Shown: one piece after another, positions 7,882-45,435 of the stretch
How the letters are laid out: each line of letters opens with the position of its first letter
Position numbering within the stretch: the first letter of the stretch is position 1
DNA from: Spirochaetota bacterium
GTDB lineage: Bacteria; Spirochaetota; UBA4802; JAFGJZ01
Direction of reading: 5' to 3'
DNA length: 64,000 bases
Assembly: GCA_029554345.1 (NCBI GenBank)
Contig: JAKPJF010000016.1
Coordinates: 1-64,000, forward strand
The notes under the pieces: generated by a model
What the model was told of the DNA's origin: nothing
Database searches by the model: none
What the model saw: only the letters and a program-made list of their open reading frames with translations
Translations under genes and position numbers: made by a program

Positions 7882-7908
7882 AAGGGGCGGTTTAACCGTC
7901 CCTTTTTT
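7882..7908. terminator. Bidirectional rho-independent terminator
   Basis: AAGGGGCGG and CCGTCCCTT form a nine-pair stem with one G-T pair around a TTTAA loop, followed by six T. It lies between the dehydrogenase gene and the convergent hybrid kinase, whose TAA falls in the T run. Confidence 0.85.
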
Positions 7909-10900
7909 ATTTTAGATTTCCGGTCAGTTCGGCGGCAACTCGGCTCAGCTCATGACTTCTGAACGGTTTGTGTATAAATGCGTTAAGTCCGTTTTTCTGA
8001 AGTTCCGTTAAATCACGTGACTGAATAAATCCTGATGCAATTATGATTTTTGCCTCCGGATTTATTTTCTTTATTTCGAAGAAACAATCACGTCCGCTCA
8101 TAACAGGCATTATCATATCAAGAATAACAAGATCTATTTTGTCCTTTTCATTTTTATAAATTTCTGCCGCCTTTAATCCGTTCTCGGCGAGAATTACATT
8201 ATACCCGAATTTTTCAAGAAGTCCTCTGCCTACCAGCCGCATAACTTCTTCATCATCAGCAAGCAGAACAGTTCCGTGCCCCGTATATATTGTTTCATTA
8301 ATGCTGCTGCTTTCAGAGGGCTCTTCGCTTAAAGGAAGAATTATTTTAAAAGTTGTCCCTTCGTTAAGTTTACTTGAAACAGTTATTGCTCCGTTATGCT
8401 GCTGGATTGTAGCGTAAGCTGCGGCAAGTCCGAGTCCGGTACCTGAACCTTGCTTTTTTGTGGTGAAAAAAGGATCGAATATTTTATTGATGTCTTCCGG
8501 CTTTATTCCGCATCCTGTATCAGATACTGTGATTTCTATATACGCTCCGGGATTGAGTTCAAACGGGCTAGATTCGCATTCATCGCCGGACATATTTTTG
8601 AAACGTGTTGAAAAATAAAGAATACCGCCGTTCGGCATTGCATGAGATGCGTTTATTCCCAGATTGAGAAAGACGTTCTGAATCTGCGGCGGATCGCCCA
8701 TTATGACGCCTGATTCAGCATTAAATTCCGTCTGGATGACAATACGTTTATCTACGGTATTTTGAAGCAGCGATATCGCACCGATTATAGCCTGATGAAC
8801 ATCTGTGGGAACAGATGCTGCTGCCTGACGTCTTGAAAATGCAAGCAGTCTGTTGGAAAGTTCAGACGCGTGTGCTGCGGATTTTATTATGACATCGATA
8901 TCGCCGTTAAGTTTCGGATCATCAGTGAATTCCGATAAACGCATTTGAAGAAGTTCAGCGCCGCCGATTATGCCGGCGAGCATATTGTTGAAGTCGTGAG
9001 CAATGCCGCCGGCAAGACGGCCGATTGCATCCATCTTTCTTGAATGATTCAATTGTTCCTGAATAGAATATTCTCTGGTCATATCGCGGAAAACAAGAAC
9101 AGCACCAGTGATGATTCCGTCTTCATTTTTTATCGGTGCTCCCGAATCTGCAATGCGGTATTCCTTGCCGTCACGGCTTATTAAAAGTGTGCTGTCAGTG
9201 AATTCTATTATTTTGCCTGAAGATATTATTTCTTCCGCCGGGTTTGCTATTTCATTTCCGGTTCTGCTGTTTATGATTTTTAAAACATCAGAAAGCTGTT
9301 TCCCTTCTGCTTCCTGGCTTTTCCATCCCGTAAGTTTTTCTGCAACAGGATTAATTCTGGTGATTAATCCTTCCGTGTCGGTGGTGATTACGGCATCACC
9401 GATTGAATTTAAGGTGATTCTTAAGTTCTCCTCGTTTTCGCGGAGCATCCTGTGTGATTCGCGTATTTCATTTTCAGACCTTATTCTTTCTGTGATATCG
9501 CGCGCCGCGGCGAATATCACAGAACCGCGCGGGGCGGATTTCCATTCGATGTGACGGTATGAACCGTCTTTTGCCTTGTAACGGTTGACGAAATTTACCA
9601 CTTCTTTCTGTTCGGCAAGATCGGAAAGAACCGCCAGGGTTGATTCTATATCATCAGGATGAACAAAATCAAGAAACTGTCTGTTTTCCAGCTCTTCTAT
9701 CTTATAGCCGAGAACCTGCGACCATTGATTGTTTACTCGCAGAAAATTTCCTTTGGTATCGGCGATACAGAAAAGATCGAGTGCGAAGGAGAAATACTGT
9801 TTAAGCTCCTCTGATTTTTTTTTGAGTTCTATTTCTACGCGTTTTCGGGAAAGCAGAAGCTTTGTCAGCGTTATAATCAGAATTAAAAGAAGAAGAAATA
9901 CCGCCGCAGAAATCATAACAAGCAATGTATACCTTTCAAAAAAAGAATACTTTCTGTTTATAATTATACTGTCTTCGGGCAAAGCCGAAATGGGTATGGA
10001 AAATCTTTTTGCGGCATCTGCATCAAATATAAATTTATTTCTGCTTTCAGTCTGAACTTTTGTTTGAGAAGCGTCGATTCCGAATTTAATTAATTCAACA
10101 GCTTTCTCTGCCGCGTATGTTCCCTGAATAATGCCGCTGTTTGCTTTTCCTCCGAGTACACCGAGACCGATGTTTGAGGCGGATGTTGAAATTACGGGTA
10201 CAGGACAGTTTCCAGCAATAAGCGGATAACTTTCGGTGTTTAAATATGTTTTTCCGGTCTTGTCCATGTACCATGCCGGAGCAATTGCGATTGAATTTTT
10301 TGGAAGATTTTTCAATTCATAAATAAGTTCATCTGTTGAAAGATTCTCTCCGTTTAAATAAATGTATGATATATCAGGATTTGATTTTTCTGTCAGGGCT
10401 ATTTCCGCGCGTGTTCCGAGACCTGTCGGAGTTCCATCCGTTATTGCGGCGATATATTTTGTTTCAGGGAAAAGCTTTTTTATTAGATCAATGTTTCCGG
10501 GGATGTCGAGGTTTTCAATTATGCCGGAAAAATTTTGCGGAAGATCTTCGGTTGATTTGATGTCGTTAACACCGCAGAAAACAACAGGGACGCCCGGAAA
10601 AATTCTGCCGCCGAATTTTTTTAAAAGATCAAATGCCGCGTCGTCCGATACGATGATTACGCCGGGCGCGTTATTCGTGTATTTTGTTTCAAGACGTTTC
10701 AGAAAAGCGTTTATATTGGTATAATCCGGAAATCGTTTTGAATCCATGTATTCGATGTATATTTCAGCATCCGGAATTTTATTTTTGATTGCTGCTGCAG
10801 CGGAAGTTACAATTTCATCAGTCCAGTGAAAGGTCTGATGATAAGAATTTATTATTAGAATATGGTTGTGAGCCGCAGGAGTATCCCCGGCTGAAAGTGC

Positions 10901-10957
10901 CGGTACTGTGATAGAAAGCATTGCTGCTGTTATCAAAACCGTTAATTTGAGCTTCAT
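7907..10957 (-). CDS. Hybrid sensor histidine kinase with periplasmic ABC-substrate-binding-like domain
   Basis: A 1016-residue membrane hybrid kinase. In order: signal peptide (1-23), a periplasmic domain of the ABC_sub_bind type (about 30-310, starting ILIINSYHQTFHW), one transmembrane helix (about 345-372), two PAS domains, the HisKA H-box ([13 protein letters not shown]), a HATPase with DTGCGI and a GTGLGLA box, and a C-terminal receiver (LADDE, phosphorylated aspartate in ILDMIMPVMSG, KPF). All catalytic motifs are intact, so it should autophosphorylate and pass phosphate to its own receiver. The ligand is unknown. The ATG at 10957 is preferred over 10975 because CGGAG lies just upstream and the signal peptide then begins MKLKL. 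Its partner regulator is not nearby. Confidence 0.92.
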   Translation of the reverse strand: MKLKLTVLITAAMLSITVPALSAGDTPAAHNHILIINSYHQTFHWTDEIVTSAAAAIKNKIPDAEIYIEYMDSKRFPDYTNINAFLKRLETKYTNNAPGVIIVSDDAAFDLLKKFGGRIFPGVPVVFCGVNDIKSTEDLPQNFSGIIENLDIPGNIDLIKKLFPETKYIAAITDGTPTGLGTRAEIALTEKSNPDISYIYLNGENLSTDELIYELKNLPKNSIAIAPAWYMDKTGKTYLNTESYPLIAGNCPVPVISTSASNIGLGVLGGKANSGIIQGTYAAEKAVELIKFGIDASQTKVQTESRNKFIFDADAAKRFSIPISALPEDSIIINRKYSFFERYTLLVMISAAVFLLLLILIITLTKLLLSRKRVEIELKKKSEELKQYFSFALDLFCIADTKGNFLRVNNQWSQVLGYKIEELENRQFLDFVHPDDIESTLAVLSDLAEQKEVVNFVNRYKAKDGSYRHIEWKSAPRGSVIFAAARDITERIRSENEIRESHRMLRENEENLRITLNSIGDAVITTDTEGLITRINPVAEKLTGWKSQEAEGKQLSDVLKIINSRTGNEIANPAEEIISSGKIIEFTDSTLLISRDGKEYRIADSGAPIKNEDGIITGAVLVFRDMTREYSIQEQLNHSRKMDAIGRLAGGIAHDFNNMLAGIIGGAELLQMRLSEFTDDPKLNGDIDVIIKSAAHASELSNRLLAFSRRQAAASVPTDVHQAIIGAISLLQNTVDKRIVIQTEFNAESGVIMGDPPQIQNVFLNLGINASHAMPNGGILYFSTRFKNMSGDECESSPFELNPGAYIEITVSDTGCGIKPEDINKIFDPFFTTKKQGSGTGLGLAAAYATIQQHNGAITVSSKLNEGTTFKIILPLSEEPSESSSINETIYTGHGTVLLADDEEVMRLVGRGLLEKFGYNVILAENGLKAAEIYKNEKDKIDLVILDMIMPVMSGRDCFFEIKKINPEAKIIIASGFIQSRDLTELQKNGLNAFIHKPFRSHELSRVAAELTGNLK

Positions 10958-11146
10958 AATGCTCCGCAATAACATAGTTACAATCTATTATTTAAATAAA
11001 TACTGACTTTTTTAATTCTATCATGATTTAACTGCAGTATCAATAAAAATTATATCAGGATTATTGTTATCTATCTGAAGAATCATTAAGCAATAAAGGG
11101 TATTAATTTTATTGACTTCACTTAACATATATATAGCACTAGTTTT

Positions 11147-34864: not shown

Positions 34865-35407
34865 ATGGAAAAGTTGCAATCTTATTCATTCGATATAAAA
34901 ACTTCAGGCATATATTTTACTCTTAATTGCTCTGATGAAAAAATAAAAAGCATTACCTTAAATTACGGAATTGCTGAAAAACCAGATGCTGTTCCCGTTA
35001 AGTTTGAAATAGCAGCTGACAAGCTCATTACTTCATTATATTATTCTACAGAACACAATCTTTCAGATTATGATTTTGATTCATTCAGCACAAATGAAAT
35101 GAAAATATACTCTGTTTTGATGGGCATTCCTGCAGGCAAAGTTATAAGTTATGGAAATCTTGCTCTCATGGCCGGTATACCTCGCGGAGGCAGATATGCC
35201 GGCAATCTTATGGCAAAAAACCGTTTTCCGATTCTTATACCATGTCATAGAGTCATAAAATCTGATCTGGCACCTGGAAAATTTTCAGCCGCAAATGGTA
35301 TTGATATGAAGATTAATCTTTTAAAGATAGAGGGGATTGCACTGAAAAACGGAAAGATCGATCCTTCATTTCTTTTCAGATTTAATGGGCAAAAAATATT
35401 GATTTAA
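34865..35407 (+). CDS. ogt: Methylated-DNA--protein-cysteine methyltransferase (Ogt/MGMT type)
   Basis: A 180-residue suicide DNA-repair protein that takes the alkyl group from O6-alkylguanine onto its own cysteine. The active site is C127 in IPCHRVIKSD, preceded by the DNA-binding helix region GKVISYGNLALMAGIPRGGR and AGNLMAKNRFP. The C-terminal GKFSAANGIDMKINLLKIEG replaces the more usual GGFGxGLxxKRxLLxxEG, so the closing loop is unusual. It is divergent from the ligase gene, with 58 bases between, and ends ten bases before the Bmp lipoprotein gene. Confidence 0.9.
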   Translation: MEKLQSYSFDIKTSGIYFTLNCSDEKIKSITLNYGIAEKPDAVPVKFEIAADKLITSLYYSTEHNLSDYDFDSFSTNEMKIYSVLMGIPAGKVISYGNLALMAGIPRGGRYAGNLMAKNRFPILIPCHRVIKSDLAPGKFSAANGIDMKINLLKIEGIALKNGKIDPSFLFRFNGQKILI

Positions 35408-35417
35408 TTAACACGGC

Positions 35418-36368
35418 ATGTTATTGTTAAATATGCTGAAAAAATTATTAATATGTCTATCGCCGCTTTTCATTTTTAGCGTATGCGGTCACGATTCTCT
35501 GCCGCAAAAGACAGCGCCGATTGAAATCGGGGCGGTTTTTACCAACAGCGGAAATTATTCGATGAAACCTCAGTATGAAAAGGCAACTGAATTTACTAAA
35601 AGATCACTAAATGTTAACTTTGATTTTATGTACGCGGATAATGGTCCGGATTATATATCAGCAATAAAACACATGGCAACATTACCCAAGGATATAATAA
35701 TCGTTGAAGCTTACGGGAGATTTGATGAGGTCGCAGAAATTGCAAAAAACAGTCCTAAAATATTTTTCATAGCATTCGGCGACAAGGATTATAATTCGGT
35801 TAATCTGCGTGTTGTGAGGTTCAACTTTAATCAGATAGCATATATTTCGGGATACGCTGCGGCGATACGCTCAAAAACAAACTGTGTGTCAATTATCTGT
35901 CCCAAAAATAATCCTGAACTTTTGGAATATTTCACATTTGGAGTAAAAAAATACAGTCCTGAAACGAAAATTTTAAGTTTGAATATGGATGATGCTAACA
36001 CCCGGGATAAAAATCCCATCGATTTGATTTCCGAAAAAGAATGCGATATCGTATTTCTTCCTGCGAGTGTCTTTCAGCAGACGCTTGTTGAGGAAGCCTA
36101 TTCAAAATCAATATCGGTTATAGCATTTACTTATTCAGATATATATGATTACGGAAATCTCATTATGACATTCAAACCCAGAACGGAGATTTTAGCTATT
36201 AGTATAATTAGCCGTGTAATTCTTGGCGGGGCGAACAAGAGCTCAATGAATTTTGGTATTGATGACGGAATTTTTATTCACAATTATAACGGAAATGAAT
36301 GGAATGATGTATCTATTAATTCCGTTGAGAATATCATAGCAGAAGTGATGAAAAAGAGAATGAGATGA
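35418..36368 (+). CDS. Bmp/Med-family substrate-binding lipoprotein
   Basis: A 316-residue protein with a lipoprotein signal peptide (lipobox FSVC, cysteine near residue 23) and a BMP-type periplasmic-binding fold: IEIGAVFTNSGNYSMKPQYE, IIIVEAYGRFDEVAEIAKNS, KIFFIAFGDKDYNSVNLRV and NQIAYISGYAAAIRSK. Family members bind nucleosides for ABC importers, but no permease or ATPase is nearby. Instead its end overlaps the next gene, a membrane hybrid kinase-like protein, by four bases (ATGA). That suggests it delivers a ligand signal to that protein. The start could also be the ATG at 35433. Confidence 0.82.
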   Translation: MLLLNMLKKLLICLSPLFIFSVCGHDSLPQKTAPIEIGAVFTNSGNYSMKPQYEKATEFTKRSLNVNFDFMYADNGPDYISAIKHMATLPKDIIIVEAYGRFDEVAEIAKNSPKIFFIAFGDKDYNSVNLRVVRFNFNQIAYISGYAAAIRSKTNCVSIICPKNNPELLEYFTFGVKKYSPETKILSLNMDDANTRDKNPIDLISEKECDIVFLPASVFQQTLVEEAYSKSISVIAFTYSDIYDYGNLIMTFKPRTEILAISIISRVILGGANKSSMNFGIDDGIFIHNYNGNEWNDVSINSVENIIAEVMKKRMR

Positions 36369-39307
36369 ATATAAATTCTTCTAAGTCCAAAACAAGATCA
36401 ATGTCTTATTATGCAAACCTTGCTGCAATTATATTTTGCGGTATTATCATTCTGTTTACACTGATTATTGCAGCATTTCATGGTGTTTCTAAAAAAATGT
36501 CTTCATACAAAGAGGCCTTTTATGAAGTAAGAAATTGTGCTGATAGAATTGATTTTGTTTTGTTGTTCATTTTGGATGAATCTAAGGATTTTACTCAAAG
36601 ACTCCAACTGATTCCGGAATCAAATCACAGAAATAGTGCGTTGGAATTTTTAGATAAAAACTATTTTTTGCAGGGTATTCTTTCATTTTCTCCTGAAGGC
36701 AATCTTGTAGAAAGTTTTTACAAACAGGGTGTAGCAGAACCCGGACAGGAAGAATATGAAGAGCTTAAATTGTTGGTAAAAAATTCCAATGAGAACTTTA
36801 TTACGGGATTTTATAAAAATAAAAATGGAGATGAGTATTTTTATATCGGAATGCCTCCGGTTGATAAAAAGGATCTTTCATTTTTCGTAAGATATGACGC
36901 GAAAATTGTAACAAACATTCTAAGAGCTTCATTCGGTTATTTTTATATAATTTCTCCAACTGACGGAATAATTGCCTCGAACTTCGAAATGGATGAAAAG
37001 AAACGAAGGGAGTTTAATTTTACTGATTTTGTAAGCTCTGATGCTATGAAGCTCACAACAGACAGCATTTTTATAAACAATTCTGACGGATACAGAAGCA
37101 TTATCAGAATGATGAAATGTTTTGTCGTTTACGAAGTGCCTCGTAAAGGCTTTTTCTTTTTTAATCCCGTTTCTGTAAGTGCGTTAATATTTTCTTTAGT
37201 AATGATATTTTACGTTATTTTGCTAAGACGGAAATTTTATCGGCATATTATAGTTTCTTCATACAGCTTTCTGGAGGCTTGTTCTCGTTCTTACCGCGGA
37301 TTGCCTGTTAAGAGTGATTCAAATAATATATATGAATATTCTTCATTGTTGGCTTTTTTCCAAAAAATTTCTGCAAAAATAAAGGAAAAGGAAGAAGCGA
37401 TAGAAATATCACGTGAAGAAAACCACGAATTGTTTTTTTCTATGAATATCGCGGTAATTGAAGAATCTTTTGATTCATTATTTGAAAAAAATATGATGAC
37501 GGAAATTTCCAATGAAGACTTCACCTCGTTACTGAATAAAATAACCGTAATCAGGGCTAATCAGAAGGCGCTTGATTTGTTTTCTTCAATTGGTTTTCCG
37601 GATTTTAAAAATTCTTACGATGCGTTCCGGCTATCGGAAGGGTTGAGCTTGTATCGGAAAATATGCGGGGCTGAAAATTCTTATGATAAAGTTATAGATT
37701 TCACCTGCGCAAACGGAATCAGAAAGAAAGCCGTCTTCCATATTTCAAGGCATAATATGAATGGAAATATGAGAAGATTTTTGATTTCGGCAATCGATAT
37801 AACTGAAACCATACGTCAGGGTGAAGAAATTAAAAATAATCAGTTAATGTGGAATTATATTGCTGACTCAGTTGAAACTCCTCTTGTGGTTGTAAATTCT
37901 CTGGGCGAAATAATTAAACTTAATCAATGTGCTTTTTCATTATTTAAGATTTCTGAATTATCCGAATCGAAAAAATTTATTGATGATGTTTTTCAGATAA
38001 CCAGTAAAGACGGCAAAAATATATCAAATAGAATACGTGCGGCCATGCTTTTGGGAAAACCTGTAAAGTATTCTGAAACATCTTATGTTAGTGTTAATAG
38101 TTCTAAGATACCTGTTTCGTTTTCTGTCATGCCCTACAAGGATATAATGGATAAAACTGCAGGTTCAATAGTCGTATTTTCTGATTTGTCCAATCAGGCA
38201 AAAATTAAATCTGATATCAGGCGTTATCAGAATGTTGAAATATTATATGATACGATGGGCGGAGTTATAAATGATTTTAATAATATTCTGGCTTCACTTT
38301 CTGTGAAAATTTCTATGGCAAAGATGATATCAGAGGATGGATCTTCTTTTTCGGAATCGCTTTCTGATTCGGAAATACTTGTAAATAAAGCCAAAGATAT
38401 AATGATGAATGTGTTTAGGATGCTTAAACCGTTTGGTTCCGGAGTATCATGTGATATGGGTGCAGTGCTTCTGAAAACTTCTGCAATTTATGAAACGCGA
38501 CCGCAAAAAATTATTATTGATAAACTTCCGGAATTATATGTAATGATGGATGAAGAAAGTACTGAAAAAATATTGTATGATGCAGCTTCTTTCGCTGTTG
38601 ATCGATCATTTCAGGGGAAAGATATAACTGTTGATATAGAAAAAAGAGCTGGAGACATTAACAATTCAGCATATGTCGATGTTATTTTTTCAAAGATTGA
38701 CTTAACTGATGAAGAATATGCTGCATTTTCCGAGATCGGAATTTTTATTGGAGAGAAATATTCTCAAATACGTAACTTGCGGGATTATGAAGATTCCGCA
38801 ATAGGATATAATGTAAAAGTTAAAGCTGAACGGCTTTCAGATTCTTTTTCATTAAGAATATCTTTTCCTGCAAAAAGCAATGAAGTTGAACTTGTTGAAA
38901 TAGAAACCAGACAGGATCATACTGATAGAAAGGCCAAGATTCTCGTAATGGATGATGATGATATTTTGAGAAAAACTTTAAAAAGAATGCTCGAATATAT
39001 GGGTCATACCGTGGTGGCCGTGACAGAGGGAGGCGAAGCCGTTGAGCTTTACAGGCTTGCTCAGATTGACGGAAAGCCGTTTGATCTTACCATACTGGAT
39101 CTTAATGTTAAGAAGGGAATGGGGGGAGAGGAAGCCGCAGTTGAAATAATAAAGACAAATTCATCCGCGAAAATAATAGCATCAAGCGGTTATATTGATA
39201 AAAATGAGTCTGATTTCGGCCGCGGAAATTTCTGCGCTTTTCTTTCTAAACCTTTTATGTCAAAGAAGATTGCAGCCGTGATAAACAAAGTGCTCACAGT
39301 ATCCTGA
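36365..39307 (+). CDS. Hybrid histidine-kinase-like protein with degenerate kinase core and intact receiver
   Basis: A 980-residue membrane protein. Two transmembrane helices (about 14-37 and 270-290) flank an extracytoplasmic sensor of the Cache kind. Cytoplasmic PAS-like domains lie at about 390-490 and 495-620. The H-box equivalent reads GGVINDFNNIL, with N636 where the phosphorylated histidine should be. The ATPase region (about 700-850) shows neither the N-box asparagines nor a DxGxGI motif. The C-terminal receiver is intact (VMDDDD, D912 in ILDLNVKKGMGG, SKPF). It is therefore probably a pseudokinase whose receiver is phosphorylated by another kinase. It overlaps the Bmp lipoprotein gene by four bases. 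Confidence 0.85.
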   Translation: MNINSSKSKTRSMSYYANLAAIIFCGIIILFTLIIAAFHGVSKKMSSYKEAFYEVRNCADRIDFVLLFILDESKDFTQRLQLIPESNHRNSALEFLDKNYFLQGILSFSPEGNLVESFYKQGVAEPGQEEYEELKLLVKNSNENFITGFYKNKNGDEYFYIGMPPVDKKDLSFFVRYDAKIVTNILRASFGYFYIISPTDGIIASNFEMDEKKRREFNFTDFVSSDAMKLTTDSIFINNSDGYRSIIRMMKCFVVYEVPRKGFFFFNPVSVSALIFSLVMIFYVILLRRKFYRHIIVSSYSFLEACSRSYRGLPVKSDSNNIYEYSSLLAFFQKISAKIKEKEEAIEISREENHELFFSMNIAVIEESFDSLFEKNMMTEISNEDFTSLLNKITVIRANQKALDLFSSIGFPDFKNSYDAFRLSEGLSLYRKICGAENSYDKVIDFTCANGIRKKAVFHISRHNMNGNMRRFLISAIDITETIRQGEEIKNNQLMWNYIADSVETPLVVVNSLGEIIKLNQCAFSLFKISELSESKKFIDDVFQITSKDGKNISNRIRAAMLLGKPVKYSETSYVSVNSSKIPVSFSVMPYKDIMDKTAGSIVVFSDLSNQAKIKSDIRRYQNVEILYDTMGGVINDFNNILASLSVKISMAKMISEDGSSFSESLSDSEILVNKAKDIMMNVFRMLKPFGSGVSCDMGAVLLKTSAIYETRPQKIIIDKLPELYVMMDEESTEKILYDAASFAVDRSFQGKDITVDIEKRAGDINNSAYVDVIFSKIDLTDEEYAAFSEIGIFIGEKYSQIRNLRDYEDSAIGYNVKVKAERLSDSFSLRISFPAKSNEVELVEIETRQDHTDRKAKILVMDDDDILRKTLKRMLEYMGHTVVAVTEGGEAVELYRLAQIDGKPFDLTILDLNVKKGMGGEEAAVEIIKTNSSAKIIASSGYIDKNESDFGRGNFCAFLSKPFMSKKIAAVINKVLTVS

Positions 39308-40760: not shown

Positions 40761-42794
40761 ATGCCCGAAAAAAAAAGCAATTTTGATATTGGCGTTTTTT
40801 CAAAAATCATAAGAATTGCTGCTTTATGTCTTTTTCTTTCTGTAATTATAACAGGTGTTCTCAATTATACTGCTGCCAGAACTATCATCCTCGGGCGCAT
40901 GGAGGACACCGAGCTTAAGAATTTTGCAATAATGAAAGCTGAAATAGCAGAGATCAGAATACTTAAAGCTATCGAAACTTCTATACTACTTGCAGACGAT
41001 CCGGTTCTTATAAGCTGGTTTAAAGGCGGAGAAAAGAATCAAAACGAAGGAAAGTTTGTAAAACAGCGTCTTACGGATGTTGTCGATAAAGCGAACTATT
41101 TTACAGTATTTGCTGTAAGCCTTTCAACAAATAATTACTATATTAACAACGGCAAAATTCTTCAAACTGTGGATAAAAATAAACCTGATGATTCTTGGTT
41201 TTTTGATTTTTTCCCGAAAAAAGTTAAAATTGATCTGAATGTTGATTGGAATGATAATCTCAAGGATACTTTTCTCTTTGTTAATGCCCGGGTTGGAGAA
41301 GAAAATTCACCTCTCGGCGTTGCAGGCGTGGGAGTAAGTCTTAAAGAAGTTTCCGAAATGATTTCTAATAAAAACGGATTTGAAGGTAATACAACTTATA
41401 TAATTGATCCAAACGGCGTCATTCAGCTTGCAAGCGATATGAGTTTATCAAACAAGAAATTCTCTGAATTTTCAGGTGATGACGTGTATGAAAAGATTAA
41501 ATCGAGCAAAACAGAAATATTTTCAGAAATATGCAAAGTAAATAACAGTGAATGTGAAATTGTATCGGTTCCTCTTAAGCGCATAGGATACAGGCTTATT
41601 GATATTACACCTAAGAAAGATATTGTCGCTCCGCTTTACAGGCTTGCCTTTCTTTCTCTTGCCGGCGCATTAGTCGTGATGATCATATTCCCTCTTATTC
41701 TTTATGTTTTCGGTACCAGAAAAGCAAAGACGCAGTTTTCCGGTCTTATTTCTTTTTTCAAAAAGATGAAGTCGGGTGATTTGACAAGTGATTCATCATT
41801 AGAATTAAAAAAAACTATGGGTGATCTTGGTTCTGAACTTTCAGAATACCGTGTATTTCTTGCTGATATAATATCTCGTTTGCGAAGAATCTCGAATTCA
41901 GTCGGAACTTCATCGAAAATTCTTTCTGAAAGTATGATCCATTATTCGGATACCGCCCAAAACCAAGCCGCTTCTGTGGAGGAAATAGCTGCTACTTTTG
42001 AGGAAATATCCGCTAAAATGGATGATGTTACAAAAGAGGCAGAATCTCAGGAAAAACTTTTAAAAGGTTTTATTGAGACAATCAAGCAGCTTGCTTCGTT
42101 TATTGAAAAATCTGAATCAATTGTTTCTGACAATGATGTTATTGCAAAAGGTATGAGCTCCGAAACGGATGATGGAAATAATTCTCTGATATCTATGGAG
42201 AAATCTATGGATGAAATCGTAAAAAGCTCAAATGATATGATGAATATCATCGGAATAATTACAGACATATCTGAGCAAACGAATCTTCTTTCCCTTAATG
42301 CTTCAATTGAAGCGGCACGTGCAGGGGAGCACGGCAGAGGATTCGCTGTAGTCGCTGAAGAAATCTCTAAACTTGCTGATCAGACTTCTCAGAGTACCAA
42401 GGATATTGGAAATCTTATTCAGAGAAATAATGAACTGATAACTGCAAGCCGTCATTTGATTGATGATACACAGAGAAAAATGACTAATATTATGAAATTT
42501 GTTTCGAGTATTGTTTCAAGTTCAAGAAGTATTGCCGAAATCAATGATTCAGAAAAAGATATGAAAGAGACAATCATGTCTCAAGTCGGTCTGCTTTCAA
42601 AAGGATCTTCGGAAATACAGCAAGCGATGGAACAGCAGAAAGACGCAATTTCTGAAGTTATGACTGTTTTAAACAGTTTTTCCGGAAAGCATTCTGAAGA
42701 TTCGGAAAATGCTGTGAAAATCGCGGAAAGTTCAGAGAATCTTGTTAGAATTACAGAAGAACTTCAGCAGATGATATCTTTGTTTAAGGTTTAG
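40761..42794 (+). CDS. Methyl-accepting chemotaxis protein
   Basis: A 677-residue chemoreceptor. One transmembrane helix near the N-terminus (about 12-34), an extracytoplasmic sensor of about 250 residues with a dCache-like look ([36 protein letters not shown]), a second transmembrane helix (about 290-312), a HAMP-like segment, and a long cytoplasmic coiled coil. The signalling tip is classical: [20 protein letters not shown], then [15 protein letters not shown] and KLADQT. There is no CheR/CheB-tethering pentapeptide at the end. AAGGTG precedes the ATG. Its last 11 bases overlap the end of the convergent hybrid kinase gene. Confidence 0.95.
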
Positions 42795-45435
42795 CTGATT
42801 CCGGATTCATATATTTTTGTAAAAGATCCATGAGTTCAGATTTTTTAAAAGGCTTGGCTATGCTTGCCGAAAATCCGAATTCTTTAGGTCTTGAAATGAC
42901 CACATCCTCGGAATTGCCGCTTGTAGCGAGAAAAACAGTTTCTGGACTTATCTCTTTAAGTAAAGAAACAGCTTCTTTTCCGCCCATGCTTCCTGGAATA
43001 GTCAAGTCTAGTATTGCTCCGGCAATACTTTTTCCACTTTCTATTTCATTCTTGAAAAAATCAATTGTTGTATTGCCGTTATGACAAAGTTCTATAGTGT
43101 AACCCAATGACTTAACCATATCGCCGATAACTTCTCTCATAATTTCTTCGTCATCCATAATAACAAAAATTCCTTGTCCTTTAAATGAAACGGTTTGCTT
43201 ATTCTCGGGTTCGATAGCAACTCCAGTTGCAGCAGGCAGAAGGATATGAAATGTGCTTCCTTCATTTATTTTAGACTCAACATCAATTGAACCGCCGTGT
43301 TTTTTTATTATTGAATAACATGTAGAGAGACCGAGACCGTGACCAGTCTGCTTGGTAGTAAAAAACGGATCAAATATGCGCTGTATAACATCTTTGCTAA
43401 TTCCGCTTCCGTTATCTTTTATTGAGATATTAACATATTTGCCTGATTTTAAAATGGGGTGCTCGTTTTCAGATAATTCGGCATTTTTTGCTGAAACTAT
43501 AAGTTTTCCGCCTTCCGGCATGGCTTGTTTTGCATTAATAACTATATTGTCAATGATCTGCCCAATCTGATTCTTGTCAAAATAACTCATCCACAAATCA
43601 TTTGCAATGTCGAATTCGAATGATACGTTTGAACCGCTTAGCGCGAATTTAACGGTATCAGCTAAATATGGAAACAGGTGTCCTACCGATTGTTTCGGAG
43701 TTCCTCCTTTTGCAAATGTAATCATCTGCCGTGATAAGTCGCGTGCCCTTTCGATAGCAGATATTGATTTATGTAAATAATCTTTAAGTTGATGGTCGGT
43801 TGCCATTTCTTCCGCTAATTCAATATATCCGAAAATTCCGCCGAGAAGATTGTTGAAATCGTGAGCAATGCCTCCGGCGAGAGATGCAAGGGATTCGAGT
43901 TTTTGTGAACGCTGCATCTCTTCTTCCATTTTTTTACGCTCGGTTATATCGCGAATTGTTCCGAGAATGAACTTCTCGCCATGCAGTTCAATGAGTTCTG
44001 CAGATAAAAGTGAATTTACAATATCCCCAGTTTTTGTAATAAAGTTAGCATCAAAATCATGTATGCTTCCTTTCTTACGTATTTGTTCAATATATTTATC
44101 TCGAAGTGAAAGGTCTTCCCATAGGTTTAGTTCTTTTGGAGATTTGCCGACAATTTCATCTCTGTTATATCCGAGTATTTTTTCTGTTCTTTCGTTTATC
44201 TCAGTTATAATTCCATTTTCAAGAGAAGTTATAAATAATATATCCGGACTGGCAAGAAACGCTTTTGCAAATTTTTCTTCTGAATTTTTCAAAGCAGTCT
44301 CAGACATTTTCCTTTCAGTTATATCTCTGACAATGCCGACAGAATATTTTTCTCCATTCAATTCATACATCCCGACGTTTACTTCAAAAGGGAATTCTGT
44401 GCCGTTAATACGAAGTCCTATGGATTCATAATAATACGGTGCTTCAAGACCAGAGTATCTTCTGGCAATAAAATCTTTAATCTTGTTCACTTCGCTGGGC
44501 GCTATATTCGTGAGAATCGATCTTCCGATTATTTCATCGGGTTTAGAATAACCGAACAATTCGAGATAGGAATTGTTAACTAATACGACAATACCTTTTT
44601 TTGAAATGACAATTGCGTCTTTTGAGTTGTTAAAAATGGCACGTAGCTGTTCTTCGTTTTCTTCCGCTCTATCTTTTGCTTCAATTAGTGCACGTTCCAT
44701 CTTTTTTCTGTCCGATATTTCCGTGAAATCAACTGCTATTGAATTCGGACCTGTTTTGAAAGCTGTTACGTCGTATTCTCCCTGAAAGCGGCCGTCACTG
44801 TAAGGAACTTCAAAATGCTGAGTGCTCAATTCACCTTTCGCTATTTTGCGGTACATTTCCGGTATTTCGGTATTTGCTAAAGCCGGAAATGCTTCCTCAA
44901 TTGTTTTTCCGATAAGGCTCTTGTGGCTGATGCCGATAATCCGGTCTGCTGAAGGATTTGCTCCTGTTAGAATGAGTTTATTATTTTCAAGTCTGTAAAA
45001 ATACTTTGCAATCGGTGAAGATTCTACAATACAGCGGAATTTATCTTCGCTTTCAATCAATGCTGATTCGGATTTCTTGCGTTCTGTTATATCATGAATG
45101 ATTGAATGAAGGTAATTCTTTCCGTTAAGTGTAATCGAGCCGCTCCAGATTTCTACATCCTTAATAGATCCGTCAGCGCAACGATGTTTGAATTCAAATT
45201 GAACTTGCCTATTTTCTGATGCTTTTATCATTGAATTGAAAATTTCATCTTTGGTGAGAGTATTTATTTCCAGAATATTCATATTCTGTAATAATTCTTT
45301 TGACCAGCCGTAAAATTGTACAGCCGCACGATTTGCATCCGCGATATTTCCAGTTGCAGAATCAATAATGAGCATAACTGCAGGATGGTTTTCAAATAGA
45401 AAACCGCAAATCGAAAGATCTTTCTTTATGCTCAA
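42784..45435 (-). CDS. Cytoplasmic multi-PAS hybrid histidine kinase
   Basis: An 883-residue soluble hybrid kinase without transmembrane segments. Four PAS domains (about 10-120, 130-250, 255-375, 385-500), each ending with the DITERK-type PAC signature, are followed by HisKA with an intact H-box ([13 protein letters not shown]), a complete HATPase ([32 protein letters not shown]) and a C-terminal receiver ([23 protein letters not shown]). The start is a TTG at 45435, supported by GGAGG seven bases upstream; no ATG fits. Unlike the membrane pseudokinase 3.5 kb upstream, all catalytic residues are present, so it could be the kinase that phosphorylates that protein's receiver (speculative). Confidence 0.92.

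Follow-up and report, generated by a model that had tools for sequence, protein, structure and literature searches.

What can a membrane-bound sensor do that has a complete receiver domain, and asparagine in place of the histidine that its kinase core should phosphorylate? The question is raised by two genes on the forward strand of the window (by which we mean the whole stretch of 64,000 nucleotides that was analysed). The upstream gene (35418..36368) is an ORF encoding a binding protein of the Bmp/PnrA fold (Pfam PF02608, E 1.7e-13), and the downstream gene (36365..39307), recognised from the ORF, Pfam, alignment and structural model, encodes a hybrid sensor pseudokinase of 980 aa. An O6-methylguanine-DNA methyltransferase-like gene (ORF 34865..35407, forward strand; Pfam DNA_binding_1, E 3.3e-22) runs in the same direction, ends 10 bp upstream of the Bmp gene and may be where the unit begins, as its first gene. 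An earlier note on this DNA had described the Bmp and hybrid genes as overlapping and as lacking a transporter, and both points hold: the end of the first ORF and the start of the second share the sequence ATGA, and neither the ORF list nor Pfam places a transporter gene next to the pair. No Bmp-type permease pair was found in the genome, a Spirochaetota MAG that is 96% complete; the PF02653 permeases found there belong to a sugar-type operon that includes a binding protein of its own, apart from one 402-aa ORF, and the only other Bmp-domain protein has no signal peptide.

The hybrid protein is organised in the order TM helix, periplasmic region, TM helix, PAS, PAS, DHp, degenerate CA domain and receiver. 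Hydropathy peaks mark the first TM helix at 36410..36484 (residues ~16-40) and the second at 37169..37234 (residues ~269-290), and the flanked periplasmic region (36485..37168, residues ~41-268) comprises ~228 residues, in which hhalign gave no match to dCache and the model has low pLDDT. The PAS domain adjoining the DHp (37871..38185, residues 503-607) matches PAS_9 with an E value of 5e-4 and is modelled with pLDDT ~80, the DHp itself (38189..38425, residues 609-687) forms a two-helix hairpin in the model (helices 609-655 and 661-687), and an ATPase-like CA domain (38438..38878) precedes the receiver (38933..39292, pLDDT ~90). Pfam recognised Response_reg (E 5.4e-11) and weak PAS matches in the hybrid protein, with no match to HisKA or HATPase_c. 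The AlphaFold model is poor in its N-terminal half and confident over the receiver (858-978); the CA domain is modelled with low confidence as an ATPase-like sandwich (692-838), in which a helix (782-804) covers the region of the lost G1 and F boxes. The best Foldseek matches of the model are histidine kinases and NifL, with the NifL-NifA complex structure ranking second, and a search of a viral structure library returned generic kinases alone. Two features of a HisKA hybrid are present, namely the DHp hairpin fold and a C-terminal receiver with the acidic pair, Asp, Ser/Thr and Lys.

To compare the catalytic residues, 21 homologues were aligned from PAS/DHp through the receiver. Residue 636, encoded by AAT (38270-38272) within GGVINDFNNIL (H-box GVINDFNNIL, 38261..38290), is Asn in the hybrid protein and His in every one of the 21 relatives, as the earlier note had claimed from the window alone. 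Its further claim, that recognisable ATP-binding boxes are lacking, is likewise borne out across the N, G1, F and G2 boxes: N743 is replaced by F, G784 by E, G786 by A, F796 by G, D797 by E, F800 by S, G808 by Y and G810 by D, and N739, L811, H821 and G827 are also replaced, all at positions nearly or fully invariant in the other homologues. Retained are D637, N639 and N640 in the H-box and D782 of the G1 box, and the receiver is complete, again in agreement with the note, with the acidic pair D863/D864, the phosphoacceptor D912 (39098-39100), S941 and K962. On these grounds the sequence rules out autokinase activity, and the hybrid protein would be kinase-dead. Among 393 Spirochaetota genomes the NDFNN pattern occurs here, in a congener and in one further ORF (G327), which we rejected as a third case since it is unrelated; in a kinase, this form is confined to one genus. 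The HDFNN pattern, by comparison, occurs 296 times in total in 59 relatives. The N636 substitution is therefore a rare replacement that belongs to a wholesale loss and not a point error.

Orthologues of the hybrid protein were sought in the 59 relatives and in 84,980 species genomes, and a single one was found, in the congener (G001). It covers residues 142-980, being truncated before the Bmp gene, and has Asn at position 636 as well; the earlier note had proposed a search for orthologous pairs, and there is no Bmp orthologue that would speak for conservation of the pair, a point against the reading favoured below. A block of 1,412 bp (37427..38838) is 100% identical in the DNA of the two genomes, inside flanks that are ~10% divergent. 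Identity between the orthologous contigs sampled is for the most part 82-91%, and a few further long stretches are free of differences. The block is either a recent recombination tract or a MAG assembly mosaic. Given this identity inside divergent flanks, and similar runs at other loci, we rejected the congener as independent confirmation of N636. Identical DNA runs were also seen between L111 and L117 (1,117 bp) and between L107 and L116, the two species being otherwise ~88% identical. A control search over 20 kb of G001 yielded little. Comparison of dN and dS is usable outside the identical block, and the DHp-CA part falls inside it and is identical in the sole orthologue. Between the congeners, the receiver has a dN of 0.003 against a dS of 0.44 (dN/dS ~0.007), and residues 142-480 have a dN of 0.043 against a dS of 0.28 (dN/dS ~0.16). 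The receiver is under very strong purifying selection, and the values of both parts indicate that the gene is maintained. The receiver has hardly changed at the amino-acid level, a further argument for its chemistry being in use.

These data bear on two rival explanations of the unusual sequence. An H-box misread in sequencing or garbled in assembly could be invoked because the block of the sole orthologue is identical and hence non-independent, and because MAG contigs are mosaic elsewhere too; one wrong base would not suffice, however, since a dozen catalytic residues are changed over about 190 residues in an unbroken frame, which rules out a single-base error and leaves an error of any kind hardly credible. 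Decay of the pair, with both partners drifting after the loss of their chemistry in pocket and kinase, would be in keeping with the degenerate state of the Bmp pocket as well as of the kinase core, and with the restriction to one genus. Against this, the frames of 316 and 980 codons are intact, the overlap is retained, and dN/dS is 0.16 in residues 142-480 and 0.007 in the receiver, so that we consider decay quite unlikely.

The binding protein has changed as well. It begins with an N-terminal signal helix (the true start may be the Met at 35433) and continues in an intact frame. Its AlphaFold model (pLDDT 84) matches AtzT and Lbp and, at TM-scores of 0.7-0.8, PnrA, BmpD and the comK activator 2hqb, and Pfam and Foldseek agree in assigning it the PnrA fold. 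In BmpA, F27 and F176 stack the nucleobase and are essential (PMC13325309). The corresponding positions in the window protein hold Met and a gap, and those of BmpA D225 and K242 hold Thr and Pro, with some uncertainty on single positions at the 14-20% identity of this alignment; all other aligned Bmp proteins have F, W or Y at both aromatic positions. With both base-stacking aromatics missing, a nucleoside is an unlikely ligand. PnrA, BmpA and BmpD have the same fold as the window protein, which differs in conserving neither the stacking aromatics nor D225 and K242, and a nucleoside receptor of that type would be expected in an ABC transporter operon, which this gene lacks; 2hqb also has the Bmp fold and is annotated as a regulator. 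Lipidation is uncertain because the candidate lipobox, FSVC, is atypical in having Val at -1. Of the nucleoside-type binding lipoprotein of the earlier note, the fold stands, the nucleoside type is not supported by the pocket and the lipoprotein part is left in doubt.

A comparison of Bmp gene neighbourhoods in 16 genomes places the pair in a wider context. Bmp genes adjoin ABC genes in G036, G007, G051, G050 (C23), G053 and G048. Transporter-less Bmp genes accompany a GGDEF (diguanylate cyclase) gene in the sister genus (G002 and G003), a hybrid kinase with intact HDFNN at two loci of G050 (C36 and C20, genes overlapping or adjacent), dCache-HK-REC-HPt kinases in G052 (C53, C32), and, following the Bmp gene, a HAMP-SpoIIE (PP2C-type phosphatase) membrane protein, also in G052 (C46; L085:6492-9268). 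The window pair belongs to this theme of Bmp signalling, recurrent in the phylum, and the transporter-less pairs support a coupling of the binding protein to its sensor here. Like the window pair, the two G050 loci combine a Bmp protein with an adjacent membrane hybrid protein, there a kinase of the HisKA (HDFNN) type; in G050, G052 and G002/G003, however, the partners keep their catalytic residues and the Bmp proteins keep both aromatics, and the window pair keeps neither. Literature searches for Bmp-kinase pairs found none. Three other arrangements were noted during this survey. Between the Bmp and GGDEF genes of G002 lies a gene for a 419-aa protein without a Pfam match (L071:3933-5192). 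Proteins of 640-712 aa without a signal peptide (L073:5004-6926 in G000:C89, L074, L075 and L076) join an unnamed N-terminal domain, conserved in the family, to a C-terminal Bmp domain and are probably cytoplasmic. In the window itself, an intact hybrid kinase of 1,022 aa (7907-10975, reverse strand) has a weak N-terminal match to ABC_sub_bind (E 5e-4, below the cut-off) and may represent the fusion of a kinase with a binding-protein domain.

Since the hybrid protein is not expected to phosphorylate itself, it is left with three outputs: a gated receiver loaded in trans, a DHp phosphatase, or a binding module. We tentatively favour, at a likelihood somewhat short of even, a pseudokinase gated by the binding protein, in which the receiver obtains its phosphate in trans and the DHp may gate or dephosphorylate a receiver. 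The Bmp-fold protein would bind a ligand in the periplasm, a nucleoside being improbable, and would contact the periplasmic region of the hybrid protein; the resulting change may pass through the two TM helices and the tandem PAS domains to the DHp, providing the gating. The DHp hairpin could not be phosphorylated, and the CA domain is not expected to bind ATP. Phosphate for the receiver would come from an HPt protein or from a second hybrid kinase; the DHp with its N640 would gate access to the receiver or act as a phosphatase on its own or a partner receiver. Loading in trans and gating by the binding protein are reasonable given the dead kinase, the conserved receiver and the Bmp-sensor pairs elsewhere. 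The ligand-gated phosphate acceptor of the earlier note survives to this extent, the dead kinase, the complete and selected receiver and Bmp coupling in other genomes being in its favour; its nucleoside ligand and its choice of donor find no support. The retained N640 and protein-protein roles as in DivL or NifL go beyond what the earlier note considered.

A phosphatase role for the DHp has precedents. The H139N variant of NtrB is known as a phosphatase without kinase activity. N640 lies at H+4, where HisKA phosphatases have Asn or Thr, and by position equals N375 of CrdS, the one residue that CrdS and its relatives require for the HisKA phosphatase activity and for nothing else (PMC3510030). 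The DHp of NtrB or EnvZ is active as a phosphatase by itself, with strong enhancement by the CA domain (PMC3510030), and the catalytic His may assist the HisKA phosphatase reaction (PMC7005713). That role of the His, the enhancement by the CA domain and the example of DivL, another pseudokinase, which has neither activity, count against the reading we favour. A bolder reading, which we find rather doubtful, is a kinase-free hybrid gated by its binding protein: Bmp-hybrid kinase pairs would have given rise to a periplasmic sensor dedicated, under ligand control, to draining or removing the phosphate of a receiver, as sink or phosphatase, while the binding protein adapted to a different ligand.

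The main rival is a protein-protein regulator without phosphate chemistry on the DHp, comparable to DivL or NifL, in which the Bmp protein and the PAS domains would tune affinity for a phosphorylated response regulator, an intact kinase or a transcription factor, or, in a variant, the protein would form a heterodimer with an intact hybrid kinase. DivL, with Tyr for His, senses a phosphorylated regulator without kinase or phosphatase activity (PMC4211667), a ChrS pseudokinase heterodimerises with HrrS (PMC9491836), and the second rank of the NifL-NifA complex in the Foldseek search points the same way. This explanation alone does not account for a fused receiver that has retained every catalytic residue and that shows the strongest conservation of all parts beyond the identical block, and DivL has all the ATP boxes that the window protein has lost; we regard it as somewhat unlikely. 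We rank loading in trans, combined with a DHp that gates or dephosphorylates, first and binding alone second, because so little change in the receiver speaks for a chemistry in use. Which kinase would supply the phosphate is a separate matter. The earlier note had named as a possible donor the intact four-PAS hybrid histidine kinase at 42784..45435 (reverse strand; ORF, Pfam), which is in the same neighbourhood, is also a hybrid and has the best DHp match among sampled paralogues, yet a weak one (27%, E 7e-7). It lies on the opposite strand and has a receiver of its own, which ranks only 7th in similarity among the sampled receivers of the genome; at least 11 other kinases have an intact H-box (exact HDFNN pattern), and there is a free-standing HPt protein of 117 residues (G000:C153). 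Receiver and DHp similarity among sampled paralogues within the genome singles out no donor, and we regard it as very improbable that the hybrid protein is a relay acceptor served by the four-PAS kinase in particular.

Among known systems, LuxP-LuxQ and TorT-TorS are transporter-less pairs of a binding protein and a hybrid sensor. As in the window, the binding-protein gene adjoins that of a two-TM hybrid sensor and there is no transporter; their sensors are active kinases, whereas the window hybrid is dead and its binding protein has the Bmp fold. NifL of Azotobacter is a kinase-like PAS protein acting without phosphotransfer; it ranks high in structural similarity to the window hybrid but is soluble, paired with NifA and devoid of a receiver. 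DivL of Caulobacter likewise has a PAS-DHp-CA arrangement with the phosphorylatable His replaced, by Tyr where the window protein has Asn, but it keeps all ATP-binding boxes and has neither a fused receiver nor a binding-protein partner (PMC4211667). Across the phylum the pairing of Bmp proteins with sensors is recurrent, and the version with a dead kinase is found in one genus only. To our knowledge, pseudokinases among bacterial two-component proteins comprise few cases, mostly soluble or cell-cycle proteins.

A destroyed kinase core beside an intact receiver suggests a sensor that functions although it generates no signal itself. If our reading is true, this would be a receptor in the membrane, equipped with a binding protein, that has lost all kinase chemistry and kept a strictly conserved receiver, and it would show that sensory input can act where a relay is gated or dephosphorylated. 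Proteins of the Bmp fold usually go by the name of ABC transporter subunits; in the Spirochaetota surveyed here they often serve as sensor subunits, which affects how they should be annotated.
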